Assembly: GCF_023072615.1 (NCBI RefSeq)
Contig: NZ_JAKNRW010000008.1
Location: 1-64,000, forward strand
Reading direction: 5' to 3'
DNA length: 64,000 bases
DNA from: Pseudomonas violetae
Lineage (GTDB): Bacteria > Pseudomonadota > Gammaproteobacteria > Pseudomonadales > Pseudomonadaceae
The notes below the pieces were generated by a model. The model was not told the DNA's origin. It did no database searches and was given only the letters and a program-made list of their open reading frames with translations. Within the stretch, counting starts at the first letter, position 1; every line of letters begins with the position of its first letter. The position numbers were made by a program, and so were the translations under genes. Shown in pieces: positions 53,200 through 57,407 of the stretch.

Positions 53200-54231
53200 T
53201 CAGACCAGGGGTAACGTCACCACGAACTCGCTACCCTGGCCATCGCCTTCGCTGCGGCCCGTCACGTACCCACCGTGCGCCTCGACCAACTCACGCACCA
53301 CCGTCAGGCCGATGCCCAGTCCGGCGCCGTTGAAGCCCACGGCATGACTGTCTTGCACGAACGGCTCGAAGATAAACGGCAGCGCCTGTGCAGAAACACC
53401 GATGCCATTATCACGGATACACATGATCAGGCTGTGGCCCTGGACTGTGACCCTCAGCGTGACGATGCCGCCCGCCGGGGTGTATTTGGCGGCGTTGCCC
53501 AACAGGTTGCCGAGTATTTGCGTAAGGCGCACGGCATCGCCATTTACTGTCAGGGGCTGCTGCGGCACATCAGCCGTGAACTGCAGCCGGTGATCGCGCA
53601 TCACCGGCCGGCACACTTCGACGGCGTCTTCGATGATCGGGACTATATCGACCAGACAGCAGTCCAGGCGCAGCTTGCCGGTGCTGGCGCGGGAGACATC
53701 GAGCAAGTCCTCCACCAGCCGTGACATGTGCTTGACCTGCCCCTCGATCAAATGCTGCATGCGCGGCAGCTCTGCGCTAGGCACCCGTACCAGGCGACCG
53801 GCGATCATGCTGATCGGCGTCAGCGGGTTGCGCAACTCGTGGGCCACCAAGGCCAGGGTGTTGCGTTGCTGCAACAGCGCCTGTTCGGCCGAGGCTTGCA
53901 GTTGTTGCGCGCTGAGGGCGGCAATCACCAGTTGCTCGTTGGCTTCGCGTATTTCAAGGAACAGCCGCTGCTCATGATCGGTACGCAGGGGGCTTTGGGC
54001 ATCGGACTGCGCCGACAAAATCGCCAGCACCAGTTGTTGATTGGCCTCGATCAATTGCTCGACCTGCTGATTGTCCATCCGCTGGGTGTTGGCGTCGCTC
54101 AGTTCCTTTTGCAGTGCCCCCAGCACAGCTCGCGCTTCAACGATTTTCTGACCCAGGAGGAACAACTCCCGAGCGGCAGTGGTCAGCGCTTTTTCGTCCC
54201 GACCATCAACCCCGCTCATGATATCCCTCAT
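53200..54231 (-). CDS. Cytoplasmic sensor histidine kinase in a KaiC operon
   Basis: 343 residues without membrane segments. The N-terminal half is coiled-coil-rich (residues 25-125, QKIVEARAVLGALQKELSDA, and REANEQLVIAALSAQQLQAS). The H-box VAHELRNPL has phospho-acceptor H131. N-box NLLGNAAKYTP, G1 DNGIGV and G2 GAGLGIGL complete the ATPase domain, so it looks active. No receiver domain and no response regulator lie next to it. ATG 54231 overlaps the KaiC stop (ATGA); ATG 54219, with GAGGG before it, is an alternative. It is likely coupled to the KaiC-like protein. Confidence 0.9.
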   Translation of the reverse strand: MRDIMSGVDGRDEKALTTAARELFLLGQKIVEARAVLGALQKELSDANTQRMDNQQVEQLIEANQQLVLAILSAQSDAQSPLRTDHEQRLFLEIREANEQLVIAALSAQQLQASAEQALLQQRNTLALVAHELRNPLTPISMIAGRLVRVPSAELPRMQHLIEGQVKHMSRLVEDLLDVSRASTGKLRLDCCLVDIVPIIEDAVEVCRPVMRDHRLQFTADVPQQPLTVNGDAVRLTQILGNLLGNAAKYTPAGGIVTLRVTVQGHSLIMCIRDNGIGVSAQALPFIFEPFVQDSHAVGFNGAGLGIGLTVVRELVEAHGGYVTGRSEGDGQGSEFVVTLPLV

Positions 54232-55688
54232 CCATTGTCGAGGCCCGTATGCCGCCGGGTTGGGCGGCCACCGAGCAGACCCTCCTGATCCGGCAAGCGG
54301 TCGCCGATCTGCAACCCGTCATTGTCGATGCGGTACAGGCGCAACTCGTCCGAGTGCGCGCTGGACCGCACCTTCACCACCGCCATGATGCGCAGCAGGC
54401 GGCTTTGCACTTCGATGTAGCGCTGCACGATGATCGCGTCGGTGAGGAATGCCGTGCCATAAGGGCTGAATCGCAGGTCGGTATAGCGGTCTTCCAGTTC
54501 CGAAGTCATCAGCACGCTGACCCCGGCGCCGGTCAATGCAGTGACCATCCGCGACAGCGACTCGCGGAAGTCTTCGCGGAAGGTGGGCGCCAGCGCCAAC
54601 TCGAAACCTGACAGCGAATCGATCACCACCCGGGTCGCCTTCAGCCGGCGAATTTCGCTGAGCAGCAAATGCACGATTTCATCGATGGACAGGTCCGGCG
54701 CGCGGCTATCCACAAGACCTACCTTGTCAGCTGCGATCAGGCCGGCCAGGGTGGCGTTCTGCGGATGGTTGGGGCGCTGTTCAAAGACTGCGATCACGCC
54801 GGTTTCGCCGCTGCGCGCACCTTCGGCCAGAAAGGTCGCGGCGAGGATGCTCTTGCCCGAACCCGACGGCCCGGCCACCAGCAGCGAATAGCCGCGAGGC
54901 AGACCGCCGCCAAGCATCTCATCGAGTTGCGGCACACCCATTTTCAGGCGCTCGCCGGCAGATGCCCGCGGCGCTTCGAAGTGTTCGGTTGCAACCGGTG
55001 CAAAAACCTTGATCCCCGATGTGGCGATGCGGAAGGTGTGCAAACCTGGCAGCGTCGGCTGGCCGCGCATCTTCATGATTTCCATCTTGCGCACCATGGA
55101 GTTGCGCTGCACGCTCTGACGCAGCCAGATCAGACCGTCGGCCACGGTGAAGATCGGATTGGTGTCGGTTTCGGTGAAATACTCGCCTATCAGGAAGGTC
55201 GTCGCCTGCCAGGTGGTCATCAACATGCCCAATTGCTGGACGAACTGCGGCAGGTTGTTATTCGGGTTGTCCTGGGTCTGGCTGGCCAATACCACCGAGC
55301 GGAACGAGTCGACAAATACCAGGGCCGGCGAGTGGGTTTGCACCTCGCTGACGATGCGCCGCAGCACTTCGTCCAGATCACCGGCCAGGGTGTCGTCAGC
55401 CAGGTTGATATAGCGCACGGAGTGGTTGATGGCTTCACTGTCGAAGAAGTCGAACTGCTGCTGATAGCGCAGCATCTTCAGCGGCGGTTCGCCAAGCACG
55501 GTAAAGAACAGCGCCGGGCGCTCAGGTGTCGCCAGGGCGAACATCATCTGATGGGCCAAGGTGGTCTTGCCGCAGCCCGGCGGGCCAGCGATCAGGTTGA
55601 ACGAAAATTCCGGTAGTCCTCCGCCCAGCACCTCGTCCAGTCCTGGCACGCCCGTGGCCAGACGGTTGATAGTTACTTTGGTGCTCAT
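54228..55688 (-). CDS. KaiC-like double RecA-domain ATPase
   Basis: 486 residues with two KaiC domains, as in cyanobacterial KaiC. First Walker A GPPGCGKT at 35-42; second GPSGSGKS at 273-280. Each domain is introduced by the KaiC hallmark: GVPGLDEVLGGGLP at about 13-26 and GVPQLDEMLGGGLPRG at about 251-266. The catalytic Glu pair of KaiC appears as GE (about 66-67) and EQ (303-304), so activity may be altered. The C-terminal part keeps TDAIIVQRYIEVQSRLLRIM and VVKVRSSAHSDEL. It starts on an ATGA overlap with the small upstream gene. No KaiA or KaiB is present, so a clock role should not be assumed. Confidence 0.9.
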   Translation of the reverse strand: MSTKVTINRLATGVPGLDEVLGGGLPEFSFNLIAGPPGCGKTTLAHQMMFALATPERPALFFTVLGEPPLKMLRYQQQFDFFDSEAINHSVRYINLADDTLAGDLDEVLRRIVSEVQTHSPALVFVDSFRSVVLASQTQDNPNNNLPQFVQQLGMLMTTWQATTFLIGEYFTETDTNPIFTVADGLIWLRQSVQRNSMVRKMEIMKMRGQPTLPGLHTFRIATSGIKVFAPVATEHFEAPRASAGERLKMGVPQLDEMLGGGLPRGYSLLVAGPSGSGKSILAATFLAEGARSGETGVIAVFEQRPNHPQNATLAGLIAADKVGLVDSRAPDLSIDEIVHLLLSEIRRLKATRVVIDSLSGFELALAPTFREDFRESLSRMVTALTGAGVSVLMTSELEDRYTDLRFSPYGTAFLTDAIIVQRYIEVQSRLLRIMAVVKVRSSAHSDELRLYRIDNDGLQIGDRLPDQEGLLGGRPTRRHTGLDNG

Positions 55689-56119
55689 TGCGAAATTTCC
55701 TGCGAAGGGGTGTCGCTCAGGGAAGGTTCCCACACGTCACGAAGCAAACGTGCGGTGAGCGAAGGCCCGATCAGCGTGGTCAACAGCTCGTAGAAGGTGG
55801 TCAGCATGACTTCGCTGAAGAGTAATGCATCGCCCGCACTCTGCTCGACGAGCACCGGCTTGAGGGCCAGCACATCCAGCAACGCCTGCGCACTGTCGCA
55901 GGTGCCGGCCAGTTGCGGGTGCTTGGCGAGGCAAAGGTGCAGGCTGCGGCGGTAAAGCGCGACAGCCCCCTGTTTGCCAATGATCGGCGTGAGGGCTGCG
56001 TCCATATCCTGCAAAGTGGTGACCAGCGCCTGGGCAATCCTTGCGGAGCCGGCGTCAGGGCCCACTCGGTGCGCCAGAGAAGCGACGATCTGGCGGCTCT
56101 CTTGGCTTTGCGTGGTCAT
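55685..56119 (-). CDS. Helical protein of unknown function, first gene of the KaiC operon
   Basis: 144 residues from MTTQSQESRQ, where the believable protein begins; the longer open frame upstream reads as promoter. Mostly helices, with RIAQALVTTLQDMDAALTPI, then ALYRRSLHLCLAKHPQL and a final LTTFYELLTTLIGPSLTARL followed by LRDVW. The last motif looks like a partner-binding helix pair. No similarity to KaiB is visible. It shares four bases with kaiC-like, so equal expression is expected; it may be an input or adaptor for the ATPase-kinase pair. Confidence 0.72.
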   Translation of the reverse strand: MTTQSQESRQIVASLAHRVGPDAGSARIAQALVTTLQDMDAALTPIIGKQGAVALYRRSLHLCLAKHPQLAGTCDSAQALLDVLALKPVLVEQSAGDALLFSEVMLTTFYELLTTLIGPSLTARLLRDVWEPSLSDTPSQEISQ

Positions 56120-56258
56120 GGCAAACTGATATCTGATGAACAGATATTGATGGTACACCCTATGGGCGCATAGGGACTCAATTAACCATAGGACTGGCGG
56201 ATGACACCGCAGAAATCGGCGATAGCCACGCCTTTGAATCAACAATTGATCCACTTGA

Positions 56259-56316: not shown

Positions 56317-56721
56317 ATGGCCATCGTCCTTCCTTCACAGGCATTTTCCAAGGACCAATGCCTGGCCGGCCTGCGGGCGGCGGTAGGCATCATTGAAAAA
56401 TGGGCAGCGTCAAGCGAGCAGGCCTGCCGGATCCTGCGTATCTCCCGCAGTACCCACACCCGCGCCAAACAGCGTGACCCGGACTGGTCGGTGTCGCTGG
56501 ATGCCGATCAGATGCAACGAATCAGCTTTGTACTAAACATCCACGCGGCGCTGCGGCTGGTGTTTGATAATCCGGAAAACGTTTATGGCTTCCCCGCCAT
56601 GGCCAATCACAACGAGTTTTTCAACGGCCGCTCGCCGCTGGAGATCATGTCCCAGGCAGACATGATCTCGCTGTATGAGACGTTTCGCCGGATTGACGTA
56701 TTGCGGGGTGCGCAATGGTGA
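56317..56721 (+). CDS. Xre/MbcA/ParS-type antitoxin (DUF2384)
   Basis: 134-residue antitoxin of RES-Xre pairs. The N-terminal region has a helix-turn-helix-like AAVGIIEKWAASSEQACRIL. The C-terminal toxin-binding domain shows the DUF2384 pattern RISFVLNIHAALRLVFDNPE, GRSPLEIM and the final [15 protein letters not shown]. Its end overlaps the toxin start by seven bases. It should neutralise the RES toxin and, with it, repress the promoter marked by two direct repeats. Confidence 0.88.
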   Translation: MAIVLPSQAFSKDQCLAGLRAAVGIIEKWAASSEQACRILRISRSTHTRAKQRDPDWSVSLDADQMQRISFVLNIHAALRLVFDNPENVYGFPAMANHNEFFNGRSPLEIMSQADMISLYETFRRIDVLRGAQW

Positions 56722-57407
56722 CCCTGGGCCGCTTGCCGACCCTTGCCGGCGACCCGGTGCAGGCCTATCGCCTGGTCAATTCAAAGTTCCCCCCCATCAA
56801 TTTGTTCGATGACGTGGCCGACGCCCAGGCGTTCGAGGCGCTCTACCAGATACAAGCACTGACCAACCCCAGGCTGAGGAACGAGGTTGGACAACTCGAG
56901 CTGATTCCGCGCAGCGAAATCCCCTTCGGCATTCCCGGCTGTTCCTACGCCACCGCACCCTTCACCCACGTCAACCCGGCCGGCTCGCGCTTCAGCGACG
57001 GCAGCTTTGGTGTGTTGTATTTGGCAGGCTCGATGGAAACCGCCCTGGCGGAAGTGCAGCATCACCAGAGGCTGTACTGGTCCAAGGTGCAGGGGCTGAA
57101 CTATGAACGCTTTGTCTTTCGCGGCCTGGCCTGCTCCTTCATCGATGCAGCAATGAAAGATGCGACGGCTATCTCGATGAAAGATCCGATCTACGCGTCC
57201 GACGATTACGCTGCTTCCCATCGCCTCGGCAAAGCCGTCAAGGACACTGGAACCCCCGGCCTGCGCTACCAGTCCGTGCGTTTGCGAGGGAACCACTGCT
57301 GGGCGCTGATGACTCCCCGACCGGTCGCGTCGATCATCCAGGCCGCCCATTACGAGATGATCTGGAACGGGCAGATCACCGGGGTCAATCAGATCCGCGA
57401 GGCCTGA
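56715..57407 (+). CDS. RES-domain toxin (NAD-degrading type)
   Basis: 230-residue toxin of the RES family; characterised members deplete NAD+. Visible family residues: [10 protein letters not shown] (Arg near the N-terminus), [20 protein letters not shown] (the R...S...Y...E core), ALAEVQHH and a C-terminal [20 protein letters not shown]. Length fits the family. It starts inside the antitoxin gene. Directly after its TGA begins a 5'-truncated amidohydrolase, which shows where the module joined older DNA. Confidence 0.9.

Follow-up and report, generated by a model that had tools for sequence, protein, structure and literature searches.

A three-gene unit centered on a KaiC-like ATPase lies in the 64,000-nucleotide stretch of the Pseudomonas violetae genome that we analyzed (contig NZ_JAKNRW010000008.1, positions 1 to 64,000; hereafter the window). 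The genes are co-directional and encode, in order, a small helical protein, the KaiC-like ATPase, and a histidine kinase (HK) (Table 1). The original prediction, made from the letters of the window, described an operon of this kind, and the open reading frames (ORFs) confirm that the unit is real. It also held that all of the genes overlap by four bases (ATGA), which is true of the small gene and kaiC. An overlap between kaiC and the HK gene needs the ATG at 54231, giving a kinase of 343 amino acids (aa) instead of 339 aa from the ATG at 54219. The sequence GAGGG sits five bases upstream of the 54219 start, and most other copies of the kinase align from residue 4 or 5 and begin past the end of kaiC. 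In the closest relative (L037), the kinase aligns from residue 1 and the overlap is retained. Because there are two candidate starts and most copies align from residue 4 or 5, we dropped the kaiC/HK overlap as a conserved feature and regard it as possible in the window. As predicted, no gene for KaiA, KaiB, or a response regulator was seen next to the trio.

Table 1. Features of the KaiC locus in the window
Feature	Coordinates	Strand	Basis
Three co-directional genes, small gene, kaiC, HK gene	53200-56119	minus	ORFs
Small partner protein of 144 aa, all helices in the model, outside the known families	55685..56119	minus	ATG 56119, stop 55685-55687
Double-domain KaiC-like ATPase, 486 aa, assigned to a discrete subfamily (GE / E[QK], A-F)	54228..55688	minus	ATG 55688, stop 54228-54230
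Output: predicted soluble histidine kinase (HisKA + HATPase_c), 339 aa	53200..54219	minus	Pfam; likelier start 54219
First, weaker copy of the shared helix (LIEANQQLVLAILSAQ)	54007..54069	minus	A7 match E 0.0016; counterpart of the copy that precedes GGDEF in the GGDEF-kinase fusion L148
Second, stronger copy of the shared helix (REANEQLVIAALSAQ), immediately preceding HisKA	53863..53982	minus	A7 match E 2.5e-12 (own segment is an A7 row); helical in AlphaFold2 model, low confidence
Putative promoter element (ATAGGGTGTACCATC), 5' of the small gene	56149..56163	minus	Consensus of aligned upstream regions, 58 Pseudomonas loci including own

The ATPase matched PF06745 in two stretches (216 bits, E 5.8e-64, Pfam cut-off 26.6), and KaiC structures were its best solved relatives in a search of the PDB. 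Both Walker A motifs (GPPGCGKTT and GPSGSGKS) and the double-domain layout are kept, as the original prediction stated. The Walker A lysines and Walker B aspartates of both domains are invariant in 84 of 84 family members, and ATP binding with some hydrolysis is plausible for this protein. The positions that had been read as catalytic glutamate pairs GE and EQ do align with the EE pairs of solved KaiC. In the first domain (CI), G and E are fixed in all 84 members. In the second (CII), the first position is always E and the last is Q in 52 members, K in 29, R in 2, and E in 1. An intact CII pair therefore occurs in 1 of 84 members, and the window protein lacks EE in both domains. We aligned the phosphorylation sites with KaiC sequences from the PDB. 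The first position is A in 82 members (C in 1, S in 1) and the second is F in all 84, so the window protein has A-F in place of what we take to be S431 and T432 of cyanobacterial KaiC. It scored 137 bits against TIGR02655 (circadian clock KaiC), short of the cut-off of 546. A KaiB (PF07689) profile found no match in the whole assembly of 92 contigs, and the Synechococcus elongatus control was positive. KaiA binds the C-terminal tail of KaiC; the window protein stops shortly past the part that aligns with solved KaiC, leaving little room for such a tail. Because of the A-F sites, the altered glutamate pairs, and the failure to find KaiB, a phosphorylation clock is unlikely for this KaiC. Full-length identity within this KaiC type is at least 77% in Pseudomonas, and other KaiC paralogs stand at about 32% among the matches listed. 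By these measures the type is one discrete, tight subfamily.

We compared the locus with its relatives. A scan with a KaiC alignment, covering 84,980 genomes at one per species, matched at least 592 stretches, at least 416 of which encode a relative at the threshold; the best 80 of these relatives are the named loci considered below. A second set holds the 58 full-length Pseudomonas copies besides the window's own. The small gene stands directly upstream of kaiC in the window and in 80 of 80 named loci (by a partial match in L106), and it adjoins kaiC in 58 of 58 Pseudomonas copies (in two frames in L072). The overlap of these two genes measures 4 bases in 56 of the named loci and 8 bases in 18. 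Distances among the small proteins correlated with those among the KaiC proteins across 78 loci (r = 0.94), a value to which shared ancestry contributes. The genes of the trio, whose conservation the original prediction had left to be checked, stay together across both sets. These comparisons indicate that the small protein and KaiC form a fixed pair, in which the small protein is the constant partner.

The small protein gave no match in Pfam, NCBIfam, PHROG, or PADLOC. When 64 small proteins (from 63 of the 80 named loci and the window) were scanned against Pfam, only scattered weak matches were returned (best E 0.016), and a small-protein profile searched against PDB sequences reached HALC2_062 (E 0.3) and a designed protein (E 0.5). 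G48, L55, L113, and G118 are invariant. An AlphaFold2 model built from 64 sequences consists entirely of helices, with a mean predicted local distance difference test score (pLDDT) of 83.7. Foldseek identified no known fold for this model (best E 1.1). The best VIA-align hit had a Z of 6.5 and a root-mean-square deviation of 6.2 over 128 residues, a range common for helical bundles. The role of KaiC input or regulator would fall most naturally to the small protein. Globins and phycobiliproteins aligned to the model with Z 3.0-3.6, which we treat as a lead only. In genome G442, the small-protein profile matched (E 0.0037) inside a 684-aa frame.

The third gene varies in type. A recognized output is present in 73 of the 80 named loci: 39 HKs, 14 GGDEF proteins, 13 HKs with a receiver (REC) domain, and 7 GGDEF-HK fusions, classes that come from small hidden Markov models built on few sequences and that are uncertain for some outputs truncated by contig ends. 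Pfam searches covered the third genes of three loci and, separately, two GGDEF outputs; a GGDEF-EAL architecture was confirmed in both of the latter, and the EAL core motif is found in 11 of the 14 GGDEF outputs. Among the 58 Pseudomonas copies, 55 have an HK match, and in L093 the output is a GGDEF protein that bears the helix described below. A response regulator follows the kinase in Paracoccus, and receivers are fused to the kinase in the hybrids; none adjoins the kinase in the window. On a KaiC tree of 84 rows, made by a quick method and with ten long end branches flagged, output type changes 17 times, or 12 times after removal of six truncated or split outputs, where the minimum is 4. 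The distinction between GGDEF-only outputs and the rest changes 6 times. We conclude from this tree that the third gene is a swappable output whose type has been exchanged repeatedly in evolution.

All four output classes carry a short helix with the pattern L-x-E-A-N-x-x-L-V-x-A a little ahead of the catalytic domain, be it HisKA or GGDEF. Its fuller form is L-[RQ]-[EQ]-A-N-x-x-L-[VI]-x-A-x-[LI]-x-[AS]-[QKH]. A regular expression for the helix matched 69 of the 73 outputs and 4 of 1774 other frames of the same loci, 2 of those 4 being further output genes at cassette loci; shuffled sequences gave 0.76 matches in 73. The four outputs that escaped the expression show near variants. We also used a 42-residue profile, A7, made of 23 rows that include the window's own segment, at E <= 0.1. 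A7 matched 10 of 11 genomes that have the cassette and none of 13 Pseudomonas genomes that lack it, five of which contain other KaiC types. Five of the 11 cassette genomes supplied rows to A7; of the other six, five matched (G817 only at E 0.08). All matches in these 24 genomes fell at cassette loci or a degraded copy, except two Nitrosospira GGDEF genes. Across 398 genomes of the window's phylum, A7 had three matches, all in cassette genomes and two of them in sources of A7 rows. Small-protein profiles recovered the same three genomes plus G501 (Xylophilus, with no adjacent output) and one doubtful genome. At the two further KaiC loci in the genome that contains the window, none of the ORFs listed has the motif. 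In the sets searched, the helix is by these matches restricted to cassette genomes. What the original prediction missed, on this comparison, is that the kinase belongs to a set of interchangeable outputs, that the small protein is the constant element, and that a helix is common to the outputs.

The window kinase carries HisKA and HATPase_c domains above the Pfam cut-offs, and no sensor domain or KaiB-like N-terminus reached them. It had been described as cytoplasmic with a coiled-coil N-terminus. Membrane segments were judged by eye, and an AlphaFold2 model (mean pLDDT 69.9) shows the N-terminus as long helices at low confidence. The kinase contains two copies of the shared helix (Table 1). 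A Pseudomonas GGDEF-HK fusion, L148, resembles the window kinase in its pre-GGDEF segment (35% over 84 aa) and in its pre-HK segment (61% over 251 aa); the GGDEF domain that separates the two in L148 is absent from the window kinase. Such fusions are present in other Pseudomonas copies too, and the two included in the KaiC tree branch outside the plain-HK group. Loss of GGDEF is the simplest history because L148 matches both flanks and the fusions branch outside the plain-HK group. The most likely ancestor of the window kinase is thus a GGDEF-kinase fusion from which the GGDEF domain was lost.

Taken together, we read the locus as a KaiC switch that does not serve a clock and has a plug-in output, probably coupled to it through the shared helix. 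The original prediction was that the trio could be a non-clock energy- or redox-sensing switch; a non-clock switch acting through the kinase fits the A-F sites, the failure to find KaiB, and the constancy of the trio. We favor, with somewhat more confidence than doubt, a self-contained intracellular cassette in which a fixed pair of small protein and KaiC provides a nucleotide switch and the swappable output is coupled to it by the helix. In the model that we infer, KaiC would form a ring, probably a hexamer, that binds ATP and turns it over but does not go through the canonical serine/threonine phosphorylation cycle. The small protein would bind KaiC and set its state in response to a signal inside the cell, for example energy charge, redox state, or a ligand. 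The KaiC ring, with or without the small protein, would then dock on the shared helix and switch the activity of the kinase or of the enzyme of cyclic di-guanosine monophosphate (c-di-GMP) metabolism. Docking would have this effect because the helix leads into the GGDEF domain or, in kinases, into the dimeric stem of HisKA. The window kinase would in turn phosphorylate an unlinked response regulator. A broader proposal, which we offer tentatively and rate somewhat below an even chance, is that the KaiC ring and its helical regulator act as a universal socket, and that an adapter helix of 20-40 residues serves as the plug by which unrelated enzymes connect to it in cis and, as in Nitrosospira, occasionally in trans. 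Clients would include HisKA kinases, kinase-receiver hybrids, GGDEF/EAL c-di-GMP enzymes, and perhaps HWE kinases. If true, this would be a mechanism of KaiC coupling distinct from KaiB/SasA.

Several observations weigh against coupling through the helix. Seven of the 80 named loci have no recognized output, of which 2 end at contig ends; L138, L157, and L182, where kinases without the helix occur on the opposite strand only, were counted in this class. Two of the 58 Pseudomonas copies (L069 and L082) likewise have no recognized output. The helix was first spotted by eye in the same sequences in which it was later counted. Part of the A7 matches are the profile's own rows, so that the weight of this result rests on absence elsewhere, which itself passed through a first-look filter, and one cassette genome (G823) gave no A7 match. 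Linkage is not absolute: in Nitrosospira sp. Nsp2, two neighboring GGDEF genes with the helix (L207, 7071-10058) lie about 500 kb from the cassette. The Paracoccus HWE kinase matches the helix weakly (7.0 bits), and 4 of 2000 shuffles scored as high. Finally, instead of a docking site, the helix could be an ordinary coiled coil for signal transmission that was inherited with the output genes. The distant Nitrosospira genes are possible outputs acting in trans; one has an intact helix and the other is apparently damaged.

Contact with the output helix might instead be made by the small protein, with KaiC only loading or remodeling it at the expense of ATP. The small protein is as constant as KaiC and all-helical, and it could pair with a coiled coil. 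In cyanobacteria, the outputs of KaiC touch KaiC directly, and we consider contact through the small protein unlikely, at roughly one chance in several. None of our findings separates it from contact between KaiC and the helix.

The distribution of the cassette bears on whether it serves its host. This KaiC type is present in 50 of 298 Pseudomonas genomes, as 59 full-length copies in 49 genomes and one copy split in two (G177), with up to three full-length copies per genome. Other hosts among the 80 named loci are Burkholderiales, Gallionellaceae, Methylophilaceae, Nitrosospira, Thiobacillus, Methylococcaceae, Pinirhizobacter, one Geobacteraceae metagenome-assembled genome, and others. On plasmids, KaiC matches were found in three Caballeronia records (72-76%) and one Paracoccus record (50%), and transposase or Tni genes lie near 2 of the 3 plasmid loci examined. 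The Paracoccus gene upstream of kaiC is 26% identical to the window small protein and was missed by the small-protein search of plasmids. Joining loci that have at least 2 flanking families in common on one side, within about 8 kb, sorted the 59 Pseudomonas loci into 30 location groups. Beyond the trio, the most frequent flanking gene cluster occurs in 17 of the 59 loci. Given these groups and the lack of a broadly common neighbor, the cassette seems to relocate as a unit, though none of its constant genes is a mobility gene. If it were mobile or selfish, or a defense system, and kept for its own spread and not for host regulation, this would account for the multiple copies, the many locations, the plasmid loci with their transposase or Tni genes, and one contig from a viral collection. 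We judge it improbable, since no mobility gene is fixed and the kinase and c-di-GMP outputs point to regulation. As for defense, every match of KaiC and the HK in PADLOC and PHROGs (the HK was scanned in PADLOC only) was of the RecA-fold, P-loop, or kinase-ATPase kind, and the small protein had no match.

Three of these loci have features of their own. The viral-collection contig (L186, 4570-5720) holds the small gene (76%) together with the initial 241 aa of KaiC (95%), which may reflect either phage carriage or misassignment. The genome of L077 (G048) has three full-length copies and a degraded copy about 8 kb from the third. On the Caballeronia plasmid pSBC2-3 (L104, 7001-8430), the annotation shows an intact small gene, while kaiC is disrupted and unannotated.

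A reduced clock or hourglass, in which KaiC times through slow ATPase activity or phosphorylation and reports to the kinase, would suit the KaiC fold and double domain. It is very improbable, since the phosphorylation residues are replaced, the first CI glutamate position is Gly in 84 of 84 members, KaiB was not found in the window's assembly, and the short KaiC C-terminus leaves little room for a KaiA-binding tail. An hourglass was proposed for another KaiC-kinase pair in the available part of de Luca et al. 2011 (PMC3164672), and against it the accessible text of PMC11832031 cites a Pseudomonas KaiC study with no evidence for circadian function. Least probable of all is an output gene that is merely co-transcribed and works independently of KaiC: some loci lack an output and the Nitrosospira outputs lie far from the cassette, but type has been exchanged repeatedly among helix-bearing proteins, and tested genomes without the cassette gave no helix match.

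With one constant pair, several exchangeable enzymes, and a single helix common to them, this family allows a direct test of how KaiC homologs act outside cyanobacteria. If the helix docks on KaiC, as we favor, it would provide a ready-made KaiC-controlled module and would tie KaiC to c-di-GMP and two-component signaling in many Pseudomonadota. Docking would also be a candidate explanation of how Pseudomonas KaiC homologs bring about the stress and biofilm effects that have been reported (Terrettaz et al. 2023, as cited in the available parts of PMC11832031 and PMC11372060). The KaiC proteins of that study of environmental Pseudomonas may include the present type, a comparison that we draw through the citing papers only.

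The kinase had been thought an unusual direct partner for KaiC, a view that the literature contradicts. According to the portion of PMC3164672 available, nearly all non-cyanobacterial bacterial kaiC genes lie near signaling genes, more often upstream of an HK, and kaiC occurs near kinases and GGDEF/EAL genes in three contexts. The proximity of kaiC to these genes was thus already known from that source; our additions are the fixed helical partner and the shared helix, and in our searches of the open-access literature we recognized no paper that describes either. The third ("black") group of de Luca et al. resembles our loci in having incomplete phosphorylation sites (AF is listed) and nearby HK, receiver, or GGDEF/EAL genes, and the window likewise has A-F sites and an adjacent HK. 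That group is described as heterogeneous, and the accessible text names no fixed helical partner or shared helix for it, whereas here we find one tight subfamily. In the second ("dark-blue") group, kaiC is also followed directly by an HK gene, without kaiB. As described in that part of the paper, its kinase differs in having a KaiB/SasA-like N-terminus, and almost all of its KaiCs keep the phosphorylatable residues that A-F replaces in the window. Another KaiC gene in the window's genome (L035, 8355-11590, contig 55) overlaps a downstream gene for a kinase-receiver hybrid, which lacks the shared helix and whose N-terminus of about 190 aa has no assigned domain; this pair may be of the "dark-blue" kind.

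The cyanobacterial KaiABC-SasA/CikA clock also links a double-domain KaiC ATPase to an HK output. Our system differs from it in that KaiB was not found, the partner is a different protein, the catalytic and phosphorylation residues are altered, and the kinase lacks a KaiB-like domain. Archaeal KaiC proteins have been described as signaling hubs (Makarova et al. 2017, through the available part of PMC5847659), in which KaiC ATPases are likewise linked or fused to two-component proteins. The architectures there are archaeal, and a fixed pair or shared helix is not described in that portion of the source.

Upstream of the small gene, ATAGGGTGTACCATC is a candidate promoter element. It is followed in the window by a perfect inverted repeat, ATATCTG-TTCAT-CAGATAT; element and repeat together lie within 56129-56163. 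A divergent RES/Xre-like toxin-antitoxin pair adjoins the cassette at 56317-57407; among the 58 other copies, such a pair is nearby only in L037.

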